Position numbers and translations under genes: made by a program. This document shows, in pieces, positions 8,329-56,533 of a stretch of DNA of 64,000 bases. Source of the DNA: Schizochytrium sp. TIO01. Taxonomy: Eukaryota > Sar > Bigyra > Thraustochytrida > Thraustochytriidae. The notes below the pieces were generated by a model that was given only the letters and a program-made list of their open reading frames with translations, was not told the origin of the DNA and searched no databases. Each line of letters opens with the position of its first letter. The first letter of the stretch is position 1. Location: contig SMSO01000035.1 of assembly GCA_004764695.1 (NCBI GenBank), positions 1,920,001-1,984,000 of the forward strand, given 5' to 3'.

Positions 8329-11049
8329 ATGGGTGGTGGCGCGTCAAAAAAATCCACGGACAGCGAAGGTGGCGTGGGAGAGGAGCCCTTCTCACCGGCC
8401 AGTGAGGAGCATCATGAAGCTGTCCACAAGAGCTTCAAAGTCAAGAAGACCTCGAGCACCAATATTGTGACTGGTGAAAGTAAGCATGAAGACGAGCCGG
8501 TCCCGAGTAGCCGCAGCACAAAGGATGTTGACGTTACAGACGAGGAAAAGGCAAGCGATAAGATCCAAGAACAAATGGATGAGAAAGACCGGATAATCCA
8601 CGAAGAGAAAAGTAGCGACAAACTTAACTTTGGTAATATGGGTATCAGGCGTGACGAGGAGAGCAAGCGCTTCCGTGAAAAGAAGAAGGGTTTCACAGGT
8701 TTCCGAGCAGAGCTTGATGGAGATGATATAGGTAGCGGTCTTCGCACGAGTGGCATTCGTATAATTGGAGAGCAACGAAAAACTGATGAAGACAAGGCAA
8801 AAGCTCTTCAGCAACTTGAAGGGTTCCCACTTTTTGAAGAAGAGGTATGTGATGACCTTTTTGAAAGCATGTCTGAAGCTACATGCGCTGCTGGCAATGA
8901 TATCTTCGTAAAGGACCTGCCATTCCTGTACTTTGTTCTTCTCATTGATGGTGAGATGCACCTTGAGGGTGAGAGTGTGAAATTCGGAAACGAACAAGCC
9001 CTACTAGGGCCCGGACAGTGCATCGGCACGCTTCGCGCTATACAAGATTGTCGTCTCTGGGTAATTTCTCGTCTGCAGTATCAAAAGGTCACCGTGGAGG
9101 CCCTTAAGCGCAAGCTTGAGCGTGGCGGATCACTTCTCGAAAATATCACGGAGATCCCGGGCCTCAAGGAGCTTCCTAGAGAAACTCGTGAAGCAATCGC
9201 TGCAGCATTGAAGCCCATCACATTTGTCAAAGGTGAATACCTCATGCGACAGGGTGAGCAAGGTCACACCATGTACTTTATTGAGGAGGGCGAGGTCATC
9301 ATTACACAGTCGAACAATCGACACACGAAGATGGGCACTGCTACGCCCAATGCACCAGCAGTAGTTGCTCGTCGAACACGTGGCGAGTACATTGGAGAGG
9401 GTGCTCTTCTGGACGACGGCTCAGAAAATACTGGTTCTAAGTTTGGTGTACGCAACGCTAACGCAATTGCTGATTCTGATGTCGTTAAATGTCTCGCACT
9501 AGGACGCCACGAATTTCAGGAGTACATGGGTTCTCTTCGTGAACTTTTTGAACACAACTTGTGCTACCGTGTGCTTAAGAGCCTTGATCTTACTAAGGAC
9601 TTGGATGACTCGCAGCTGTCGGTGATTGTTTCGACCCTTGAAGAAGTTGAGTTTGATCCTGGTGAATACATTGTTCATCAGGGCGAGATTGGAGATATCT
9701 TTTACATTGTGAAGGATGGCACCCTTGATTGCACTTTGAGCGAAGAAGGGTCAAGCGAAACGAAGCGAATTGGAACCCTTATCAGCGGAGATTACTTTGG
9801 CGAGGGAGCATTGCTTACAAACGCTCCGCGTCGCTGCAATGTTTGCGCTGTGGGTCCAGGTAAAACTAAGGTATGGGGTCTTAAGCGCTCTAATTTCGAG
9901 AATTTTCTCTCGGAGGGTCTTAAGCAAAAGCTTGGGGACACCTTCATGCACCGTAAAACAGCCAAGGAAAATAAGAAGCAACAATTGCCTTGGGAAAATA
10001 TGCAAAAGATTCGCACTCTTGGTAGCGGTTCTTACGGCACCGTGGACCTGGTGCGTGACCGTGTCACTGGTGAGACATACGCTCTGAAGCGTATTCGTAA
10101 GGCAACGGTAGTTGCCAAGAAGCAACAACGCTTTATCAAGAACGAGCGTGAACTTATGTCAGCTACCCATTCACCCTTCCTGGTTAATCTCATCTGTACA
10201 TATAACAAAGGCGACTCTGTGTACATGTTGACTGAGGTATGCTTGGGAGGAGAGCTGTATTCACTTATGAAAGACACCGTGGATGCGCGCAATGCAGACC
10301 TCGAAGACGATGATGACATTATTTGCGGATGTTTCGAGCTGGAATCTCAGTGTCGATTCTACACAGCCTGTATCGTGCTTGCTATTGAGTACTTGCATTC
10401 TCAAGGTATTATTCATCGTGACATGAAACCCGAGAATCTGCTACTTGATGAAACGGGCTACCTCAAGCTGGCGGATTTTGGCTTTGCCAAGATGGTGCAT
10501 GATCAGCGCACATATTCGCTATGTGGCACGCCTGAGTATACTGCTCCAGAGGTTTACAAGCGCAGCGGTCACTCCAAGGGTGTTGATTGGTGGAGCCTTG
10601 GCGTGATTGTTTATGAAATGGCCTCAGGCTTCTCCCCATTTCATGTTGTGTCTCAGAACTCGTGGGATTGCTACATCGAAATATCCAAGTACGAAAAATA
10701 TTATCCCTCCATTCAGTTCCCTCCTCTGTTTGGTCCAGAACTCTGCTCTCTACTACTTCGTCTACTTTGTCCGTCACCAAGTAAACGTTACGGTACCCGG
10801 AAGGCAAATGCTTCTCACGTTAAGGAGCATCCCTTTTTCGGTGTAACAGACGAATTTACCTTCGCAATGGACTGGCAAAAGCTGGAGAGTCGCACATTCG
10901 TACTTGACGAGCAATTCAGACCTCGTATGCCAGAATCTGGCCTAGATGCAAACAACTTCGAAGTCTGTGATGATCGTCACGAGGAGGACGAGAAATTTGT
11001 AGATGAATCAATGATGGAGAGTGGAGGTACTTGGTACAACGATTTTTAG
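8329..11049 (+). CDS. cGMP-dependent-type protein kinase (AGC family) with cyclic-nucleotide-binding domains and N-myristoylation signal
   Basis: The frame encodes 906 residues from the first ATG in frame, which has ACC before it and G at +4. The protein starts MGGGASKK, a textbook N-myristoylation signal followed by lysines. A charged region is followed by three cyclic-nucleotide-binding folds. The first (about 160-270) is degenerate. The second (about 275-400) has EYIGEGALL. The third (about 415-535) has the phosphate-binding cassette GDYFGEGALLTNAPRR. The AGC kinase domain spans about 557-838, with GSGSYG, HRDMKPEN, DFG and the activation loop SLCGTPEYTAPE. An acidic insert (about 650-668) lies between helices D and E. 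The C-terminus ends WYNDF, like the hydrophobic tail of PKG/PKA. The third cassette has RR where PKG usually has RT, so nucleotide preference cannot be read off. It is intronless and converges on a phosphodiesterase gene. PKA-like specificity is not excluded. Confidence 0.92.
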   Translation: MGGGASKKSTDSEGGVGEEPFSPASEEHHEAVHKSFKVKKTSSTNIVTGESKHEDEPVPSSRSTKDVDVTDEEKASDKIQEQMDEKDRIIHEEKSSDKLNFGNMGIRRDEESKRFREKKKGFTGFRAELDGDDIGSGLRTSGIRIIGEQRKTDEDKAKALQQLEGFPLFEEEVCDDLFESMSEATCAAGNDIFVKDLPFLYFVLLIDGEMHLEGESVKFGNEQALLGPGQCIGTLRAIQDCRLWVISRLQYQKVTVEALKRKLERGGSLLENITEIPGLKELPRETREAIAAALKPITFVKGEYLMRQGEQGHTMYFIEEGEVIITQSNNRHTKMGTATPNAPAVVARRTRGEYIGEGALLDDGSENTGSKFGVRNANAIADSDVVKCLALGRHEFQEYMGSLRELFEHNLCYRVLKSLDLTKDLDDSQLSVIVSTLEEVEFDPGEYIVHQGEIGDIFYIVKDGTLDCTLSEEGSSETKRIGTLISGDYFGEGALLTNAPRRCNVCAVGPGKTKVWGLKRSNFENFLSEGLKQKLGDTFMHRKTAKENKKQQLPWENMQKIRTLGSGSYGTVDLVRDRVTGETYALKRIRKATVVAKKQQRFIKNERELMSATHSPFLVNLICTYNKGDSVYMLTEVCLGGELYSLMKDTVDARNADLEDDDDIICGCFELESQCRFYTACIVLAIEYLHSQGIIHRDMKPENLLLDETGYLKLADFGFAKMVHDQRTYSLCGTPEYTAPEVYKRSGHSKGVDWWSLGVIVYEMASGFSPFHVVSQNSWDCYIEISKYEKYYPSIQFPPLFGPELCSLLLRLLCPSPSKRYGTRKANASHVKEHPFFGVTDEFTFAMDWQKLESRTFVLDEQFRPRMPESGLDANNFEVCDDRHEEDEKFVDESMMESGGTWYNDF

Positions 11050-11436
11050 AAATAATCATGATAAGACAATACTTTAAGTTGATGACATCGAGTGATTTTC
11101 CCAAGTGAAATGCATCGAATGATACTAGTACACTATTATCTCTCCATTAAGAACTAATACGAACGAGATGGTCAATATAGATAGTTCGGAAATGTGATTT
11201 CTAGTAAAATATCATAATTATTTGAATTTAGAAAACGTGTTTTCACGACCATTGCATTTCATTTATAATCCATTCTGCACACCCTAGTCGACTCTATTAG
11301 TTTCCAAAAACAAAAATTTGTAGATGAAGCCTTTGCATCTTCTATTTGAAGCGAGTGAATTAACGTATCAGGAATAAAAAATAAAACTCATGCTTTGTAG
11401 TTATATGCCACAGATTTGCAGCTAATTCACGCTTTT
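11050..11436. other. Convergent 3' intergenic gap
   Basis: This AT-rich 387 bp spacer is shared by the 3' ends of the kinase and phosphodiesterase genes. It must hold both polyadenylation sites. No gene is seen. Confidence 0.7.
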
Positions 11437-14229
11437 TCATACAGGTTTGATATATTGAAGGTCTAGCACTTGCACAAGAAATCCAGGAAATTGCTTCATG
11501 AAATTGGCAAAGTCAGCTTTGATAAATTTGTAGTAAGAACCTTCTGATTCAGCACGGATTTCAAGTGCTTGCACATTCCCTTTGGCAATGCTATTCATGT
11601 CACCAAGAAAACATCCTGGTCCGAGTCCACTCTTAGGTTGAAAGTCAATTGTTTCAGTGCTAATGCCACGAAAAGTACCTCCATTCGCATCCATATGAGT
11701 AATAGTGACAGAACCATCGATAATTATAACTGGCTCAGATAGGAGATCACCATTGTTGAAGGAGGTTTTGTGCATGAGTTTGAGAAACTCTTCAATGCAC
11801 ATCTGGTCCACGAGAATATCGTACAGCACAGGATTACCAGAGATTACTTGAAGAGCCTCAACAGTTTGCGAACGACTTGAAAGGAGGAGAGAATCACATA
11901 CAAGCTTGCCAGAGCGAGACTGGAGCAAGGCTGCTACTACCTTTGATATAGAAAATTTCACGACAGACACATCGTTACGTGCTGTTGCTGTAAAGCCGTA
12001 CGACACCATTGCATCTAACATTTTCGAATTACGACTTGAGAAAATATTCCTGTGCATGAAGCTCATTGATGAATATTTGTTTTTAGAAGAATATTTACTA
12101 TCCTTCATCTTTCCGCTCGACTCCTCATAGTGGAGCTTTGTTTCCAAACTATGCGTGAGACCCATCTCCCCAAATGAATCAGACACATTGAGAAGATGTT
12201 TCATTTCGTATTGTTTCTCAGGAAAGTGGTCTCGTAGCACTCCACGTTGTTTGATTTCGTTTGCCTTTGCTGCTGATGTCGCAATAAGAGCGAGATGCGC
12301 TTCACTGGAATATGAGTTACGTCTTGTGACTATATCAGGCCCAGCTGAAACTGCAACTGAACCTGTCATGACAATCCATAGATACATGCAGGGCTCATCT
12401 TCCTCGACTATGCTCGATCCAGCAGGTATTTCAATGATTTCTGCTTGTTCAGCTATCTGCTTCAGCAACCTTGGGTTTTTCCAAATATGACGAAAGTAAT
12501 ATTGAGCTTTGAGAAGTCGTATCACTTCCTTCTCGATGCAACCTGGACACCGATTCACAGGAATTTGAAGTGTATCCAACTCTTTAAGCTGCTTGAATTT
12601 AAGAGATGCGTTTGGTGCAGCATGGACCAGAAAAAGACGATCTTTGAGACCAGGATCATCGTTACATTTTTTTTCAATCTCCTGACTTGCAGTGTGGATC
12701 GGAGGAACTCCCATCTCATGTAAGACCACAGTGGAGTCCCAAGGGAAAGAAAGCAGTTGCTTCTTTCTTTCGAGGCCAATAGCACCAGACTTGTAAAGGC
12801 TTTCTACAAGTGTTGGGGAATAATTTGTGTCTGCACTATACGCAATCGTTGCTAGATTCCAAACCGCTTGAAAGCCTATACATGGAATTGTATGTAGTGA
12901 GTAGAAGAAACGAATTTTGGCACATCCCAAACGCAGAGGGAGACCAATTACAATAGGGCGAAAATCAAATAGTGAGGTAAGAAACTCTGCTGAAAACCCG
13001 GTAATAGCTGCATATTTTCTTATAAATGACTCTTTGATGGTGGTGGTTGTATATAAGCGAACCTGCCGTTGTCGTAAGATTTTTTGAAATGTCCCCGCAT
13101 CATGGTCAGCATGGCAATGCGTCAAAATGATACCTTCGATCGTTGTTGGTGCGATTCCCATGCGTTCCATAATTTGCGAACTATTTGGAGGTGGATCCAC
13201 CATAATACCAGCCCTGTTAATCCAAAGAACAAATCCTGTTGTGTTTCCGCTAGGATCGAACCCATGAGATGACCCCAAAACTGTCACTCCAAAAAGAGGA
13301 GGTTTATACGCACAGGAAGTAAGGCGTGGAACTTGAGGAGGTGAGATCTTAATCTTACTTGGTATTTTTGCAATACACTGACCTTTCTCTAAGACTCGAA
13401 ATACATTTATGAAGGAGCCCTTTTGGTTAGATTCTTTGATCAAGCGAATAGAAATCGAATCATTGAGTTTGTTTTCTGCATACTCGTTGAAAGGAAGAAA
13501 CTCTAACAGATCTTCGAGCTTCAACGTGTTTCTTGCACCGTCAAGGCCTATACCTTCTCCGCAAAAGTTCGGCCACGCAGATTTCCGAAGCGTACTTGCA
13601 AAATCTTGTTCAAATTTGAGATTTTCTGGCGTAGGGCCAAATAGAGTCTCTTGGAAAGCTGTGCGAATACGTTCCTCTAAACCTTGAGTTGTAAGAATTG
13701 TAACTTTGCGTTTCTTGACAAAGTAATTAAAATATAAAGGAAATTCAAACTCAGCTGTGCTTAAACCGCAATTTCGATCGAACATTTCACCATGTATAAC
13801 ATAAAAAGTTGGCACCTCTAGTCCGTAGTTCATGCAATCCTTGATAGACTCTGGAGGTATGCCAAATTGAATCGATCCTATGGACTCTGTTTGAAGTAGA
13901 AAACCATCTCGATCAAGGTGATAGAGCCGAGGGAAGTCTGGATTATACACAGTCGGTAGCTTTTTAAATGTTGAAGATCGCCGGGGTATACACGAAGCTT
14001 CTGCGTCCTCTATTCCAAAGCGAACATCGGCTGATTCGTGTATAAATAGTGGCTCGCCTGGTGAACTAGCAGTCGAACCACAGCCGACTTTTGCATCAGA
14101 TATCGTCTCAAAGCTCTCGAAGCTATCAAATTCTGTCACTACTAAGTCTGTATTGGCCGTGTTCCACCCGTGGTTCGCAAAAGGGGCACTGTGCTCATTT
14201 TGCTGATAGACTGATGCACAGGCGCCCAT
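11437..14229 (-). CDS. Class II (metallo-beta-lactamase) cyclic-nucleotide phosphodiesterase with two cNMP-binding domains, Dictyostelium GbpA/PdeD-like
   Basis: The frame is open from 14433, but that codon is TTG. The first ATG is at 14229, with A at -3 and G at +4, giving 930 residues. It starts MGACAS, a combined myristoylation (Gly2) and palmitoylation (Cys3/Cys5 region) signal. The metallo-beta-lactamase domain (about 310-565) carries the zinc motif THCHADHDAG with ligands H371, H373, D375 and H376, and further likely ligands H446 and D467 (YSADTNY). Two cyclic-nucleotide-binding folds follow. The first (about 572-765) holds SFGEMGL and a long serine/lysine-rich insert. The second (about 798-922) holds GPGCFLGDM. 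This order, hydrolase then two CNB domains, matches the cyclic-nucleotide-stimulated phosphodiesterases PdeD/PdeE of Dictyostelium. Hydrolysis of cGMP or cAMP at the membrane, activated by the CNB domains, is the likely role. The substrate is inferred. The upstream open frame contains a Cys-rich CSACGLREPCTC stretch, so an upstream exon cannot be excluded. Confidence 0.88.
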   Translation of the reverse strand: MGACASVYQQNEHSAPFANHGWNTANTDLVVTEFDSFESFETISDAKVGCGSTASSPGEPLFIHESADVRFGIEDAEASCIPRRSSTFKKLPTVYNPDFPRLYHLDRDGFLLQTESIGSIQFGIPPESIKDCMNYGLEVPTFYVIHGEMFDRNCGLSTAEFEFPLYFNYFVKKRKVTILTTQGLEERIRTAFQETLFGPTPENLKFEQDFASTLRKSAWPNFCGEGIGLDGARNTLKLEDLLEFLPFNEYAENKLNDSISIRLIKESNQKGSFINVFRVLEKGQCIAKIPSKIKISPPQVPRLTSCAYKPPLFGVTVLGSSHGFDPSGNTTGFVLWINRAGIMVDPPPNSSQIMERMGIAPTTIEGIILTHCHADHDAGTFQKILRQRQVRLYTTTTIKESFIRKYAAITGFSAEFLTSLFDFRPIVIGLPLRLGCAKIRFFYSLHTIPCIGFQAVWNLATIAYSADTNYSPTLVESLYKSGAIGLERKKQLLSFPWDSTVVLHEMGVPPIHTASQEIEKKCNDDPGLKDRLFLVHAAPNASLKFKQLKELDTLQIPVNRCPGCIEKEVIRLLKAQYYFRHIWKNPRLLKQIAEQAEIIEIPAGSSIVEEDEPCMYLWIVMTGSVAVSAGPDIVTRRNSYSSEAHLALIATSAAKANEIKQRGVLRDHFPEKQYEMKHLLNVSDSFGEMGLTHSLETKLHYEESSGKMKDSKYSSKNKYSSMSFMHRNIFSSRNSKMLDAMVSYGFTATARNDVSVVKFSISKVVAALLQSRSGKLVCDSLLLSSRSQTVEALQVISGNPVLYDILVDQMCIEEFLKLMHKTSFNNGDLLSEPVIIIDGSVTITHMDANGGTFRGISTETIDFQPKSGLGPGCFLGDMNSIAKGNVQALEIRAESEGSYYKFIKADFANFMKQFPGFLVQVLDLQYIKPV

Positions 14230-26261: not shown

Positions 26262-27740
26262 CTACCTCTTGCGACCAAGAACTGATTGTACATGCTGAGC
26301 AAAAACGTTGCGCGGTGAGGCAGTTTTGACCCAGGGGTGTAACAACAGCTGGTCAGTGGAAGCACGCTGTTCTGGGCGAATAGCAAGGCAACGTTTGAGA
26401 AAGTGCAAGAAAGCTGCACTCCACTGCTGAGGCTGCTCTACAGTTGGGGAGGGCTGAATAGTAATTAACAACAAAGCGCGAAGAGGCTGTTCGTCGATTA
26501 GAGGAGGCTCGCCATCTGCACATTCAATTGCAGTAATTCCCAAAGACCACACATCGACCTTGGAATCGTATTCAAGACCGCGGATTAGTTCTGGAGCCAT
26601 CCAGTACGGTGTTCCAACGACAGACTTGCGTTTGTTCTCCTCAGAAGTCAAAGAAACAGCAAATCCAAAGTCTGCAAGTTTGATACGGCCATCAAAGTCC
26701 ACAAGAATGTTGTCAGACTTGATATCACGGTGCAATCGATGGTGGCGATGCAGAAAGCTAAGGCCCATAAGAGCTTGCTGGCATACGTATGCGATGCATG
26801 ACTCCTTCCATTGTACACCGCGACCAAGGACATCCGTGAGTGCACCGCCGTTCATGAACTCAAGCATAATCCAAATCTCATCTTTCCAAGCCACTGTTTC
26901 TTTGTAGCCAACAATGTTCTCGTGGCTACTTAGCGCATGAAGGGCGATTTCTGACCGCAAGGTTTCAAGTTCGGAAAGAGGGGCTACCTTGACAGCAACG
27001 CGTTCCTTTGTACGCAAGTCGGTGGCAAGATAGACGGTGCCTCCAGCACCTTCGCCAAGTTTCTTCTCGCGTCGAACAATTTTGTTCGGGTCGAATGACT
27101 TGATCTCTGCTGCTTGCGCCATGTTGCGCCGCAGAGTCTGACGGCTTGGAACCTTGGGACCTGGGCCTTCGAGGTGAAATTGAATGACATCAAGCACCTC
27201 TTGAGGATGGGCGGACACCTCTTCCTTGGAAATACCACTAGCTTTAAGAAGAGCTCGCCATTTGCTTGGGAGACCGGTGAAGCCTGTTGAGGATCTTGGG
27301 TCAACACCAACGTGCTCAACGTGCTGAAAATTGTATGGCCGTCCGATTGAGATGCCATCATCACTAGCGCCGTCAGTGTTACGGTGTCTATTTTTCTTAA
27401 AGATGTTCTTATACGAAGGTTTTGCAGGAGCTACGTGGCTTCCCAGCACAGACATGGCCCTTGTAGAAGTTTCATTCTGGCTCGCTGCTTTAGGCACCAT
27501 GCTTGCCCAAACATCTGGCAAACCCTTGAACGTGCCTGTCGCTTCGTCGAATTCCACGTGTACGCATCTCAGAACATTCGTGGGTCCACTGATTTCCTCC
27601 TTGGGCTGCAAATACTGCTGTTGCGTGCTGATGAGGTTGTGAGTATTTCCAATGTTATGTCCAGGGGCGCTCGCCCCGCTAGCACCTCCCATCGAAGCAG
27701 CAGCCGCCGCCGATGCTGTTGCCGTGGGCCCCCCACTCAT
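26262..27740 (-). CDS. PAK-like (STE20) protein kinase with CRIB domain, intronless paralogue
   Basis: A continuous 492-residue frame on the minus strand. An Ala/Gly/Ser-rich N-terminus precedes a CRIB-like half element at 61-78 (HVEFDEATGTFKGLPDVW). The full CRIB is at about 130-161 (ISIGRPYNFQHVEHVG then GFTGLPSKW). The kinase domain is at about 227-470, with GEGAGG, VAVKV, HRDIKSDN, DFG and SVVGTPYWMAPE. The same order, the extra half-CRIB and near-identical blocks (HVEHVGVD.RSSTGFTGLP, LIDEQPLRALLLITIQ) show it is a duplicate of the gene at 23445-25204. It lacks that gene's CRIB intron, so either the intron was lost here or gained there. It should act downstream of a Rho-family GTPase. 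Confidence 0.92.
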   Translation of the reverse strand: MSGGPTATASAAAAASMGGASGASAPGHNIGNTHNLISTQQQYLQPKEEISGPTNVLRCVHVEFDEATGTFKGLPDVWASMVPKAASQNETSTRAMSVLGSHVAPAKPSYKNIFKKNRHRNTDGASDDGISIGRPYNFQHVEHVGVDPRSSTGFTGLPSKWRALLKASGISKEEVSAHPQEVLDVIQFHLEGPGPKVPSRQTLRRNMAQAAEIKSFDPNKIVRREKKLGEGAGGTVYLATDLRTKERVAVKVAPLSELETLRSEIALHALSSHENIVGYKETVAWKDEIWIMLEFMNGGALTDVLGRGVQWKESCIAYVCQQALMGLSFLHRHHRLHRDIKSDNILVDFDGRIKLADFGFAVSLTSEENKRKSVVGTPYWMAPELIRGLEYDSKVDVWSLGITAIECADGEPPLIDEQPLRALLLITIQPSPTVEQPQQWSAAFLHFLKRCLAIRPEQRASTDQLLLHPWVKTASPRNVFAQHVQSVLGRKR

Positions 27741-44431: not shown

Positions 44432-47400
44432 TTAGTCCCTTTCTTCAGAATAGGCATAGAAGTTATCACGGGTGTAACCAAGATCAAGCAAGGTCTTCAC
44501 CATGATGCGTTCAAAAACCGGAGGGCCGCAAATAACAATGAGTTGGTCCTGTGCTGGCGGGAAAAACACACGACTGCGAATCAACGATGGTTTGATGAAT
44601 CCTACCCCCTCAGTCCAACCCAGAGGAGGTTTATTGAGAATGCTATAGTAACGGAAGTCCTGCGGAAACTTTTCTTGGATGTCCTCAAAACATTTCAAAA
44701 ATGCAAGGTCGTCTTCCTCTTCTGCAGCGTACAGTAGGTTGCTTCCAAGGTGCGCAACCTGATCTGACTTGCCCTGGTTTCGCAGCTTCTGTGAATGATG
44801 AATGTATTCACGGATGATTTGCACCATAGGTGCCACGCCTGTGCCTGCAGCCAGAAACCCAAGCTTCCGAATGGGGCGTTGGTTATACGTGATGGCACCA
44901 CCACTAAAGTCGATGCGAAGTCCGCCCATGGCTTTCATTTGGAGAACAGACCCAGGGCGGATATACTTGAGCAACTTGTAAATTGGTCCACCGCGCTCAT
45001 CAAATCTGCACAGAATACCAATCACGCCCTCATCTCCAGGTCGAGTTACAGGTGAAAAGAAGCCTTGAAGCGTCTCGCCATCCAATTCGCCACGAATTGC
45101 CACATACTGGCCCACTTGCAACCCAGAATCTTGCAAAGACCCATGAAGATTAAAACGAATTTCACGAGTAGACTTGCCGTACTTGTAGTCTGTGTTTCGG
45201 GTCTCGCGTAAGACACAGGTGACCCATCCATCAGACTTTGCAGTCTCCTCGTTAACAAGCAAAGACTTGAGCGGCTGTTTAATTGTTGCGGCCCGTTCAC
45301 CAGCAATGCGACCAAAAACAACGCATTCAAGCAAACTGTTACCACCAAGACGATTGGCTCCATGTACACCACCAGTTACCTCACCTGCAGCAAACAAGCC
45401 AGGAATGTGCCGATGTTTACCAATGACATTATTTGGAATCATCATCTGCACCTCAGCACCAGGATTAATATCCAGACCGCCCATAGTGTAGTGGATGCTT
45501 GGAGTAACACGAGCCATGACTAAGTTAGTATCTGTGGGACCCAGCGCAGAAGGGAAAGCGGTCTTGCCCGTCTTTGAACAAATATGTTGCTCAATGGCTT
45601 TCGAGTATTCTGCGAAAGTACTTTTCAGTGCCTCTTCACTACATCCGATCATCTTTGCGCATTCTGCAACATCCTTGCAAGTTTCAAACAGGCCAAGTCG
45701 GTCCCGATAAAAACCAAGCGAGGGCAAGCCAAAAAGCTTCTGTGCCTCTTCTGAGAGAATGACCCATGCAAATGGCTGTCCAACGTAATCCTCGTGCTTG
45801 TAGACAGATCCGTGTTTTTGAATTGCTGCTGCAACTACACTGCGTAAGTCCAGCTCGTTAACAAAGCGTTCTCCAGCACAGTTGACGAGGATGCCTCCCG
45901 AGCCACGAATGGCTTCTGGAGCCAGGAATTTGGTAGGGTTTGATGGGTTCTTCGGGTCAATGAAACCAGTTGGGTGAAGCTGTACCTTGTCCATGTCGAT
46001 CAAGTTGGCACCCAACGCTTTGCCAAGACGAACACCATCCCCTGTTGCAAATGGGCCATTTGTCGTAGGGATACCCTCCAAGTCCGGGCGGTATTCCTGC
46101 AAAAGGCTATTCGCTGACTTGTCGCAACCAAAGCCACCTGTCGTGAGAATGACAGCATCACCTTCGAGTACTTCGTGTTTACATACTGAATCATTTTCAT
46201 CGGTACAGTCATATTCAACTCCATGAACACGCCCACTCTTCTCCTCTTGTAAAATCTTGGTAACGCGGCTCCGAGTTCGAATCTCAATTTTGCCTTGATA
46301 CTGTGTTTCCACAGCTTCGCGAAGTGTCTTCATGATCAGAAATCCAATAGGCACAGGATTTCCATGTTCATCATCGGGAGCACGGTGCGTTCGCTTCGCA
46401 CTATGCCCACCAAGCTGACTGAGAACAGAAAGAGGGACATGAAATCGCTCTTTGAGCCACTCAATAGAGGGTGCAGAACGAGTAGACAAAGTTCGGACCA
46501 AACTTAGGTTTGTGTCTCCTCCTTTTCCGCTCCTAAATGTATCGCGCTCAAAGAGGGCCTCACTATCTGCTGCGCCAAGCTCCGCCTGGGTCGATGTACC
46601 CCAGCCGTTGATTCCTGAAGTTGCTTTGGCAGAGTTTCCACCTGTGCGATTCTCCTTTTCGAGGAGAATCACCGAAGCACCTGCATCAGCTGCTTCAATT
46701 GCCGCACTAAAACCAGCGAGACCAGCACCCACAACAATGACCTTTGCATGCTCGTGCTTGCCCCATCGAGCTTCGCGGCTTTCTTTGCGCTCTACGCCTG
46801 GGATCTCCATCCGGATAACGCGGGGCCCATGACGAGCGTACACTAGGAAGTCCGTCACAGGCTTTTGCAAGCATGTGCGCAAGGGGTCCAACATACTGCG
46901 AGTAGCAGCCGGGTCCTTGGCGGCAAGGCCTGCTGTGGCAAGGGCATCAGCAAACATAGCGGAATGACTTACAACAGTGCATTGGGCAACATTTTCATCC
47001 CCAAGCTTCATCATAGTACCCTTGCGTGAGTCTAGCACGTGTGAATACAAGTTGCCTCGATGACGAAAGACGTGCTCATAATCACCAGAAGTGGCTGCTG
47101 CCTGCCCAGGCTTGAGCTCGAGTAGAGCGATATATGACTTGCTCTTCTCGTTCTTTTCAAAGTAGCGTCCAAGGCTGAAGGAAACCCTGTCGCGAGACTC
47201 CATCAAGTCGGAGGTGGCTATCACAAGGTCTTTAATGGATGGTGGCTCAACAACCGCGACACTCCAAAGGCGACCACCAGGATGCGTGCCAAGTACTTTG
47301 ATATCCCCAGCCCAGTCAACAAAGGCGGACTTGATGCCAAATTTACTTAATCGATCCACGATGTTGTCGATTGCCCAGCCTTTAGCGATACCGTTGAGGT

Positions 47401-48070
47401 CAAGATAGGAATCGGCCATCAACTTGGTCAGTTCCTTAGCGTCTTGGCTCAGGTGAAAGCACGCATGCCAGTTGGCACGGGTCTTAATTTGCTCCACTGC
47501 ACGGGAAAGGCCACCTTCATCACCAAAGCCACGATCTAGCAACGATCGCCACAGACTGACAGCTTTTTCACCTAGCTTTTGTTCCCAAGAGTTATTGCGG
47601 TGAAGACCTCCATTGGTGGGGGATTGCGAGCCATCCTCACGAGCGAGAGACTTGCGAGCCGCCTCAATGTAGTGATCCAGAAGCGGGCGAAATGCTGGAT
47701 CAAAGGACCCGCGAGTGTAATTGAACATCTCCTTGGCTGCTTGCAGAACCTCTTGCATCGGTGGTGACAGTTTGCATGTGGTTCCGACAGCCATGCGATT
47801 AATTTGGTTGAGCTCGCTGTTATCTACCCAGAGACTGAAAGTCTTTTCTGTCAGGTCAAACACGCCTTGGCAGAGTCGCATAACACTGTCTTTGGCCTTT
47901 TCAGGATCTTCTCCTGCAGGCGCGTAGAACTTGACCTTGAAGGGCATAGAACAGCGCACGCCCTCTACAGACAACAAGTCGGAGCTCACCTGTTCATCGT
48001 CGACGACCTTTGGTCTCTCAAAAGCTACCGATCCAACGACACGACTGGCACGAGCATCTCCGTCAGGCAT
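44432..48070 (-). CDS. NADH-dependent fumarate reductase, fused ApbE-like / flavoprotein / cytochrome b5 reductase-like domains
   Basis: The frame opens at a TTG (48079); the first ATG at 48070 gives 1212 residues. There are three modules. Residues about 35-400 form an ApbE (FAD:protein FMN transferase)-like domain with DLNGIAKGWAID, FVDWAGDIKVLG and SHSAMFADALATAG. Residues about 440-935 form the fumarate reductase flavoprotein: VIVVGAGLAGFSAA dinucleotide site, TGGNSAKATSG, LHPTGF, YTMGGLDI and AAGEVTGGVHGANRLGGNSL. Residues about 945-1212 form an FAD/NAD(P)-binding reductase of the cytochrome b5 reductase type, with FLAAGTGVAPM and ICGPP. This order is that of the soluble NADH-dependent fumarate reductases of trypanosomatids (about 1140 residues), which reoxidise NADH by making succinate. 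No peroxisomal SKL-like C-terminus is present (it ends EERD) and there is no obvious mitochondrial presequence, so a cytosolic enzyme is likely. The gene is intronless. Confidence 0.93.
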   Translation of the reverse strand: MPDGDARASRVVGSVAFERPKVVDDEQVSSDLLSVEGVRCSMPFKVKFYAPAGEDPEKAKDSVMRLCQGVFDLTEKTFSLWVDNSELNQINRMAVGTTCKLSPPMQEVLQAAKEMFNYTRGSFDPAFRPLLDHYIEAARKSLAREDGSQSPTNGGLHRNNSWEQKLGEKAVSLWRSLLDRGFGDEGGLSRAVEQIKTRANWHACFHLSQDAKELTKLMADSYLDLNGIAKGWAIDNIVDRLSKFGIKSAFVDWAGDIKVLGTHPGGRLWSVAVVEPPSIKDLVIATSDLMESRDRVSFSLGRYFEKNEKSKSYIALLELKPGQAAATSGDYEHVFRHRGNLYSHVLDSRKGTMMKLGDENVAQCTVVSHSAMFADALATAGLAAKDPAATRSMLDPLRTCLQKPVTDFLVYARHGPRVIRMEIPGVERKESREARWGKHEHAKVIVVGAGLAGFSAAIEAADAGASVILLEKENRTGGNSAKATSGINGWGTSTQAELGAADSEALFERDTFRSGKGGDTNLSLVRTLSTRSAPSIEWLKERFHVPLSVLSQLGGHSAKRTHRAPDDEHGNPVPIGFLIMKTLREAVETQYQGKIEIRTRSRVTKILQEEKSGRVHGVEYDCTDENDSVCKHEVLEGDAVILTTGGFGCDKSANSLLQEYRPDLEGIPTTNGPFATGDGVRLGKALGANLIDMDKVQLHPTGFIDPKNPSNPTKFLAPEAIRGSGGILVNCAGERFVNELDLRSVVAAAIQKHGSVYKHEDYVGQPFAWVILSEEAQKLFGLPSLGFYRDRLGLFETCKDVAECAKMIGCSEEALKSTFAEYSKAIEQHICSKTGKTAFPSALGPTDTNLVMARVTPSIHYTMGGLDINPGAEVQMMIPNNVIGKHRHIPGLFAAGEVTGGVHGANRLGGNSLLECVVFGRIAGERAATIKQPLKSLLVNEETAKSDGWVTCVLRETRNTDYKYGKSTREIRFNLHGSLQDSGLQVGQYVAIRGELDGETLQGFFSPVTRPGDEGVIGILCRFDERGGPIYKLLKYIRPGSVLQMKAMGGLRIDFSGGAITYNQRPIRKLGFLAAGTGVAPMVQIIREYIHHSQKLRNQGKSDQVAHLGSNLLYAAEEEDDLAFLKCFEDIQEKFPQDFRYYSILNKPPLGWTEGVGFIKPSLIRSRVFFPPAQDQLIVICGPPVFERIMVKTLLDLGYTRDNFYAYSEERD

Positions 48071-55030: not shown

Positions 55031-56533
55031 ATGAGCGAGAAATCCGAAGCTGCTGCTACGACAGCTGACCATGAGACGGTTGAAGCTACGTCAAACCATA
55101 AGAAGCACGAAGGAAATCTTGCAGAGAACGAAGTTATGCCTGGTGTAAATGGCAATGCAAATTGTGAAGTCAATGGGGGATTTGAGGATGGAGAAAGAAT
55201 AAAATCTAGCGAGACTGGCGTAGTTGGAGATTATCTAGAACAGAAGGGTGCCACCTTGGCCAAAGTTGACGCTCAACCGCTGGCTGCAGCACCTGATGCT
55301 GGCGGCCATGTGAACGAAGATGAAGTTAAATCTGTATGGTCTTGCTTGAGAAGGTCATTCAGGCACCCTTGGTGCAGTGTCTGTGCAAATCCTGATAAAG
55401 GCGTCGAACCATGCTGCATCTGTCCAGGTTGCTGGTGTTGCGATCGCATGAGACCGTCAAGTATGACAGCAATTAAACCAGGAGAAGACCAGCATGACAT
55501 GGATGATGAAGAGGGGGAATGTTGCGCCGAAGCGAGATGCTTCTCCAGAGACTTTTGCGGAGTCTTCTGCACAAGTTTTGCGTGGTTTACTCTTACCTTT
55601 TGTAGTGGAACTGTCATCTTGTGCCTTCAGGATATCCCGTACTATATACTTAGCATTTACTTGTTCTTTGTAGGCAGCGCCATGACGTCTCTCTTTCTGG
55701 CGACGTGGAGTGATCCTGGATACGTTGAGAAGGGCACAGGACGTGAGAAGTGGGCCGAGATCAGTGCTGATGTGCGATCTGGCATGCGACAACGTCTAGA
55801 AGAACGACGCCAAGAGGTTTTTGAGGAAAATAAAAAGGGTCGTTTCGGTGACAAGCAGATTAATCTACCAGATGGCACAATTAAGCATGTTAAGGTGGCA
55901 TTAGCTCCGCGTATTGCGCTTACGGATGCAGAGATTGAAGTAAAGTGCAATCGTGCTGTGGAAAAATTCAGACGTAAAGTCAGGTACTGTCATGTGTGCG
56001 ATCTTTTTAAACCAGCTAGTGCGCATCATTGCCGGACGTGTGGGCGATGCATCAACCGCCTTGACCATCATTGTCCATGGATTTCAGGTTGTGTTGGCGA
56101 GCTGAACCAGCGCTATTTTCTTCTTTTCTTGTTCTACGTATTTCTCTCGGCCTCTTCTTCAATTCTTCTGTTCTTGTACCGGAGCTACATGTCAGTTTAC
56201 TACTCTCCGCCTCGAAGAAGGGGCGAGCCTGGGTCTGGGCCATGGCCAATCCTATTTTGCATTTTTTCTGCAATTCTCTGCTGTTTTTTCTGTGCGTTTG
56301 TCTGTGCCATGAGTTGTGAGCAGTATGAAGCGGTCACCACTGGTATTCCAGGTATCGATGCTATGCAAGGCGTTGGAGAAGACCAGGAACTTAGCATATA
56401 TCGTGGGCTGAAGAAGTACCCTTGCTTGGGTAACGGCCTTTCTCCACTTTGGTTCTTGCCTATCCCATTGCGTAATAAAAACGCAAAGAAGGAAAAATCT
56501 TCAGCAACCGCTGCGTCGAAAAAGAACGATTAG
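55031..56533 (+). CDS. DHHC-type protein S-palmitoyltransferase
   Basis: The first ATG in frame (55031) gives 500 residues; the frame is open upstream from a GTG. An acidic disordered N-terminus is followed by a Cys-rich patch (CSVCANPDKGVEPCCICPGC, 115-134). Transmembrane helices lie at about 183-199 and 204-225, with the DPG motif at 228-230. The zinc-binding DHHC domain (about 318-360) has CHVCDLFKPASAHHCRTCGRC and the catalytic DHHC at 345-348, followed by two more helices at about 361-381 and 406-427. A TTxE-like segment (VTTGIP, 435-440) is present. It attaches fatty acids to cysteines of membrane-associated proteins, through a palmitoyl-Cys348 intermediate. A long helical insert (about 235-300) between the DPG motif and the DHHC domain is unusual. 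The gene is intronless. Confidence 0.95.
   Translation: MSEKSEAAATTADHETVEATSNHKKHEGNLAENEVMPGVNGNANCEVNGGFEDGERIKSSETGVVGDYLEQKGATLAKVDAQPLAAAPDAGGHVNEDEVKSVWSCLRRSFRHPWCSVCANPDKGVEPCCICPGCWCCDRMRPSSMTAIKPGEDQHDMDDEEGECCAEARCFSRDFCGVFCTSFAWFTLTFCSGTVILCLQDIPYYILSIYLFFVGSAMTSLFLATWSDPGYVEKGTGREKWAEISADVRSGMRQRLEERRQEVFEENKKGRFGDKQINLPDGTIKHVKVALAPRIALTDAEIEVKCNRAVEKFRRKVRYCHVCDLFKPASAHHCRTCGRCINRLDHHCPWISGCVGELNQRYFLLFLFYVFLSASSSILLFLYRSYMSVYYSPPRRRGEPGSGPWPILFCIFSAILCCFFCAFVCAMSCEQYEAVTTGIPGIDAMQGVGEDQELSIYRGLKKYPCLGNGLSPLWFLPIPLRNKNAKKEKSSATAASKKND

Follow-up and report, generated by a model that had tools for sequence, protein, structure and literature searches.

In the 64,000-nucleotide stretch of the Schizochytrium sp. 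TIO01 genome analyzed here (the window), a protein kinase with cyclic nucleotide-binding (CNB) domains lies tail-to-tail with a phosphodiesterase-like protein of the metallo-beta-lactamase (MBL) fold, and both open reading frames (ORFs) begin with Met-Gly. Judging from sequence, starts of the N-acylation type are a family-wide feature of the CNB-kinases and MBL phosphodiesterases of this genome, which is a stronger finding than the pairing of the two genes. We consider it probable that the two are separate members of two expanded families, both membrane-tagged, and that they are neighbors most likely by coincidence. An earlier note had interpreted the locus as a module of acylated kinase and acylated phosphodiesterase. 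The PKG architecture of the kinase, the MBL phosphodiesterase-like enzyme and the Met-Gly starts kept among paralogues were borne out, as were the strands, coordinates and 387-bp gap of the two ORFs, all of which were exact; the gene pair as a module was not. All paralogue counts were taken from the genome around the window (64.06 Mb, 37 contigs).

Acylation-type starts in the two families

Both proteins fit the N-myristoylation consensus, as had been proposed, and each Met-Gly is encoded at the first ATG downstream of an in-frame stop. The kinase ATG is located 27 codons downstream of its stop, while 94 open codons without Met separate the phosphodiesterase ATG from its own. The codon-usage score of this leader was -0.148, as compared to a mean of -0.129 for intergenic windows and an upper end of -0.015 for the lowest 5% of coding windows. 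Thus, the leader looks non-coding.

Six of the eight MBL-type genes begin with Met-Gly (MGACASV, MGTAKSK, MGGAASS, MGAGSSV, MGAGASA and MGSGKAN), and so do five of the seven CNB-kinases with readable starts (MGGGASK, MGCASSS, MGCTQSQ, MGAAAST and MGCSSSS), out of a genome total of 11. As a background rate, the consensus fitted 3 of 35 other ORFs of at least 250 aa in the same sample and none of the 11 other ORFs in the window. Fisher's test (11/15 vs 3/35) gave a value of 1e-5, which is overstated owing to the non-independence of members within a family. Behind the motif, the tails align poorly among paralogues while the motif itself is kept, which points to selection on the motif. The genome contains one N-myristoyltransferase match. 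On these sequence features, the anchoring of both proteins looks real.

Among seven readable non-kinase CNB proteins (L002, L005, L008, L016, L018, L026 and L030), Met-Gly was found only in L002, which was also the only one covered by the scan for other domains. L002 (L002:586-2289; G000 C30:6996576-6999830) is an RGS-CNB protein of 568 aa with three CNB domains and the start MGCSGSK, and may represent a cyclic-nucleotide input to G-protein signalling that also carries an acylation-type start. A DHHC palmitoyltransferase is encoded in the window (55031-56533, plus strand) about 41 kb from the kinase and phosphodiesterase genes.

A kinase of PKG architecture

The kinase ORF matched the Pfam protein kinase family (E 9e-63) and, in two stretches, cNMP_binding; its best PDB match was the apicomplexan PKG 4rz7 (E 1.5e-87). 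Within a single chain, tandem CNB domains precede an AGC kinase domain, and the catalytic residues K587, R697-D698 and D716-G718 are invariant in all six aligned kinases. The description of the kinase as multi-CNB is correct in that three such domains are present, although the first of them, CNB-A, is degenerate.

Selectivity for cGMP goes with a Thr or Ser directly following the cassette Arg, and Ala is cAMP-like. In the window kinase this residue is Asn in CNB-B and Arg in CNB-C, and thus neither the Thr nor the Ser of a strict cGMP-dependent kinase; the closest paralogue, C5, has the same two residues. The other CNB-kinases of the genome mostly have Ala or Ser. The alignment with the PDB match places Thr at this position in apicomplexan PKG. 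We therefore label the kinase by its architecture and assign neither cGMP nor cAMP as its ligand. In Toxoplasma PKG isoform I, likewise a single-chain CNB kinase with a Gly2 start, the myristoylated Gly2 directs plasma-membrane location (PMC5414004). Unlike it, the window kinase has three CNB domains, lacks Cys in residues 1-20 and carries no Thr next to the cassette Arg. Two further loci, L056 and L059 (G000 C34:4149 kb and C3:421 kb), encode PP2C-CNB-kinase fusion proteins.

An MBL protein with degenerate CNB folds

The MBL ORF matched cNMP_binding (E 9e-8) and Lactamase_B (E 3e-6) in Pfam, and its metal ligands are complete in all 87 aligned rows. The N-domain and MBL domain together (model residues 99-558) superpose on ELAC2. 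The closest solved fold of the MBL domain is that of Apyc1, whose structure entry is titled anti-Pycsar nuclease and which we take to be a cyclic-nucleotide hydrolase; it differs in consisting of one domain only, about 245 residues long, with no N-domain, CNB domains or tail. The protein did not match the class II phosphodiesterase profile PF02112 (PDEase_II) at E 0.1, and its motif HCHADHDAG differs from the class II signature HxHLDH as quoted in PMC10865986.

Two CNB folds follow the MBL domain. The two CNB domains ascribed to this protein are thus confirmed at the fold level by the structure model, but the canonical phosphate-binding cassette is missing from both, and neither alignment nor cassette inspection found the cassette Arg in CNB1 or CNB2. 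Because the binding cassette has been lost, gating of the enzyme by its own CNB folds appears doubtful. In their architecture as described, the Dictyostelium phosphodiesterases GbpA and GbpB (class IIb) likewise have two CNB domains downstream of an MBL catalytic domain (PMC11988041). They are listed as cytosolic and activated by cyclic nucleotides (PMC11988041), whereas the window protein carries a tail of the acylation type and lacks an intact cassette. Since the cassette Arg is absent, we classify it as a protein that would work like GbpA and GbpB and has the same architecture, and not as a gated member of that group.

Bacterial relatives of the phosphodiesterase

Proteins with the same N-domain/MBL/CNB order were found in Myxococcota, Spirochaetota, Planctomycetota and other bacteria, in a family of at least 80 loci. 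We took 80 of these (L078-L157) from among the matches listed, to which the following numbers refer. The proteins are mostly about 715 aa long, the best being 39% identical to residues 105-629 of the window protein (E 9e-118), and the metal ligands are identical in 79 of 79 aligned. Gly is the second residue in 1 of 80, and in 64 of 80 no more than 60 aa separate the N-domain motif from the called start; for five Met-Gly MBL proteins of the window genome, this distance is 84-226 aa. The bacterial starts were called as the first ATG, GTG or TTG of the open frame, and a few very long N-termini (e.g. in L087, L118 and L137) probably reflect an over-extended frame and not a real tail. In 74 of 80, a loose pattern for the CNB1 cassette was matched, whereas CNB1 of the window protein has no cassette Arg.

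When 714 ORFs from the neighborhoods of the 80 loci were clustered, no cluster beyond the phosphodiesterase itself recurred in more than 8 loci. A cyclase-like neighbor was found at 5 of 80 loci with a single cyclase query, and 11 of 80, in which the phosphodiesterase frame was not recovered, were left out of the neighbor reading. The window member of this bacterial-type family reached no NCBIfam cut-off. In a tree of bacterial and window-genome proteins, the eight MBL genes form one group (82/78) next to Myxococcota and Planctomycetota. Its branches are long, the longest being that of the window protein (1.27), and other eukaryotes are missing from it, so we make no claim of transfer.

Adjacency of the two genes

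A CNB gene of another locus is located within 12 kb of only one of the eight MBL genes, the one in the window, and of none of the other seven. Under uniform random placement, an MBL gene neighbored a CNB-kinase in 1.0% of simulations (11 kinases) and any CNB gene in 5.2% (60 CNB genes). The counts were merged by hand: 113 CNB matches gave 66 loci, of which six within MBL genes were removed, and a possible twelfth CNB-kinase with an internal stop (C34:1046829-1049439) was left out. For 94 cyclic-nucleotide loci, four neighbor pairs closer than 8 kb were observed as compared to 1.1 expected, with four or more in 2.5% of simulations. Of these pairs, one consists of a cyclase and a phosphodiesterase inside a single open frame, and the clustering is therefore at most weak. 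Acylation, as a trait of both families, is uninformative about the window pair. With no second MBL gene paired, and with a chance of about 1% for a pair noticed after the fact, the proposed module was not supported.

Two loci outside the window combine cyclase and phosphodiesterase matches. At G000 C30:3210229-3217656 (minus strand), a same-strand open frame of 2647 aa contains matches to both a class I phosphodiesterase and a class III cyclase, apparently a cyclase-phosphodiesterase fusion. At G000 C30:5678735-5684307 (minus strand), a class I phosphodiesterase and an ORF containing two cyclase domains lie on the same strand, about 4 kb apart.

Features of the locus and its surroundings

Table 1. 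Predicted features of the kinase and phosphodiesterase genes, in window positions.
Feature	Positions	Strand	Evidence
AGC kinase of PKG architecture, CNB and kinase domains on a single chain, 906 aa	8329..11049	+	ORF list, Pfam, PDB match
Predicted N-myristoylation start MGGGASKK	8329..8352	+	Sequence; paralogue starts
CNB-A, degenerate, without phosphate-binding Arg	8821..9114 (limits approximate)	+	Alignment with paralogue L003
CNB-B, cassette with insertion ahead of Arg (IGEGALLDDGSENTGSKFGVRNANA)	9220..9528	+	Cassette inspection
CNB-C, canonical cassette FGEGALLTNAPRRCNV; Arg at position of apicomplexan PKG Thr	9646..9912	+	PDB alignment, cassette inspection
Protein kinase domain containing the catalytic Lys, HRD and DFG	10003..10839	+	Pfam, alignment
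Convergent intergenic gap, 387 bp	11050..11436	none	ORF coordinates
MBL-fold phosphodiesterase-like protein, two CNB folds, 930 aa	11437..14229	-	ORFs, Pfam, genome paralogues, bacterial relatives, structure model
CNB2 fold, aa 790-927, degenerate cassette, likewise in 20 family rows inspected	11449..11862	-	Alignment, model
CNB1 fold, aa 562-786, insertion where cassette Arg would be	11872..12546	-	Alignment, cassette inspection, model
MBL catalytic domain, aa 312-559, with Apyc1 as nearest solved fold	12553..13296	-	
Metal-binding motif THCHADHDAG, aa 370-379	13093..13122	-	Alignments
Conserved N-domain, aa 92-300	13330..13956	-	Bacterial relatives, structure model
N-terminal disordered tail, aa 1-86, start MGACASVY; predicted myristoylation and Cys4	13972..14229	-	pLDDT <50 over 1-86

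Elsewhere, the minus strand of the window encodes a protein of 1212 aa in which ApbE is fused with a fumarate-reductase-like FAD domain and an NAD-binding oxidoreductase module (44432-48070), and a PAK-like kinase with a P21-Rho-binding domain (26262-27740). The genome also contains a PfaA-like polyunsaturated fatty acid synthase match, which together with its size and its long single-exon ORFs is suggestive of a thraustochytrid-like labyrinthulomycete. Among viral contigs, there were only 2 remote matches to the MBL protein and 37 kinase-like matches.

Discussion

The two genes might form a co-selected locus, the kinase and phosphodiesterase being co-expressed and acting together on a shared membrane as a local switch. 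Their exact adjacency, with a chance of about 0.010 for an MBL gene beside a CNB-kinase, the acylation-type starts of both and the excess of close pairs, even if one of these is the single-frame cyclase/phosphodiesterase, are consistent with this. However, the seven other MBL genes lack such a neighbor, the genes are convergent with no common promoter, their codon bias is unlike (means of approximately 0.16 and 0.01 over nine windows each), and Met-Gly starts recur in both families irrespective of position. We regard a co-selected locus as quite unlikely. It is also unlikely that the MBL protein is another MBL hydrolase bearing CNB folds, such as an RNA nuclease, and no cyclic-nucleotide phosphodiesterase. 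MBL folds hydrolyse RNA too, which is why we only infer phosphodiesterase activity on cyclic nucleotides from the sequence, but the fold nearest to that of the protein is Apyc1, presumably a cyclic-nucleotide hydrolase, and the order of its domains is that described for GbpA and GbpB (PMC11988041).

Lastly, both Met-Gly codons could be internal, with the true N-termini derived from unseen upstream exons. The 94 open codons ahead of the phosphodiesterase ATG would allow this, and the genome may splice, as paralogue C35 is divided over two frames. Yet the leader has a non-coding composition, in the paralogues C13, C34b, C35a and C31a, which share the motif, the start follows an in-frame stop by 2-6 codons, and the motif recurs over otherwise unalignable tails, which makes internal codons very improbable.

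Several points weigh against the reading that we favor, of two separate, membrane-tagged family members. The MBL genes C36a (MPDD) and C36b (MSEE) and the kinases C31b and C31c lack the Met-Gly start, and the starts of four further CNB-kinases lie outside the stretches examined. With a chance as low as about 1%, the pair might still have a function. Acylation, substrate and localisation are deduced from sequence only.

If the two proteins are separate members of membrane-tagged families, autoinhibition of the kinase would be released by cyclic nucleotide binding at CNB-C and perhaps CNB-B, and the MBL domain of the phosphodiesterase, with its class IIb architecture, would hydrolyse 3',5'-cyclic nucleotides. 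Both Met-Gly tails would be N-myristoylated, the phosphodiesterase perhaps also palmitoylated at Cys4, and both proteins would be held on the inner face of membranes, so that the messenger would be read and destroyed at the same surface. Because both CNB folds have lost canonical nucleotide binding, the phosphodiesterase would probably be a constitutive or otherwise regulated membrane sink.

Precedents for acylation of cyclic-nucleotide signalling proteins exist in other lineages: N-myristoylation has been reported or predicted for Toxoplasma PKAr1 (PMC6152992), Trypanosoma CARP3 (PMC10470820) and mammalian PDE8A (PMC6713761). None of the three is described in the cited passages as an MBL phosphodiesterase. 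Titles and abstract openings, with subscription journals mostly outside the search, described no labyrinthulomycete cyclic-nucleotide protein and no N-acylated MBL phosphodiesterase. Since apicomplexan phosphodiesterases are all class I according to a review (PMC10865986), the pairing of an acylated MBL phosphodiesterase with an acylated kinase of the PKG type is, as far as the literature searched shows, a new combination.

We tentatively propose that this lineage has moved much of its machinery for reading and destroying cyclic nucleotides onto membranes by N-acylation, including most PKG-architecture kinases, most MBL phosphodiesterases and the RGS-CNB protein. The phosphodiesterase tails would have been added to an enzyme core that bacteria also have, and the window phosphodiesterase would be an ungated membrane sink facing its kinase. 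Metazoans confine cyclic-nucleotide signals largely by anchoring proteins. If true, kinases and phosphodiesterases that are lipid-tagged family by family would offer a testable case of compartmentation without scaffolds, and the N-acylated PKG/PKA-R design of Toxoplasma would be extended to MBL phosphodiesterases. The phosphodiesterase architecture described from Dictyostelium would likewise have bacterial counterparts in Myxococcota, Planctomycetota and Spirochaetota.
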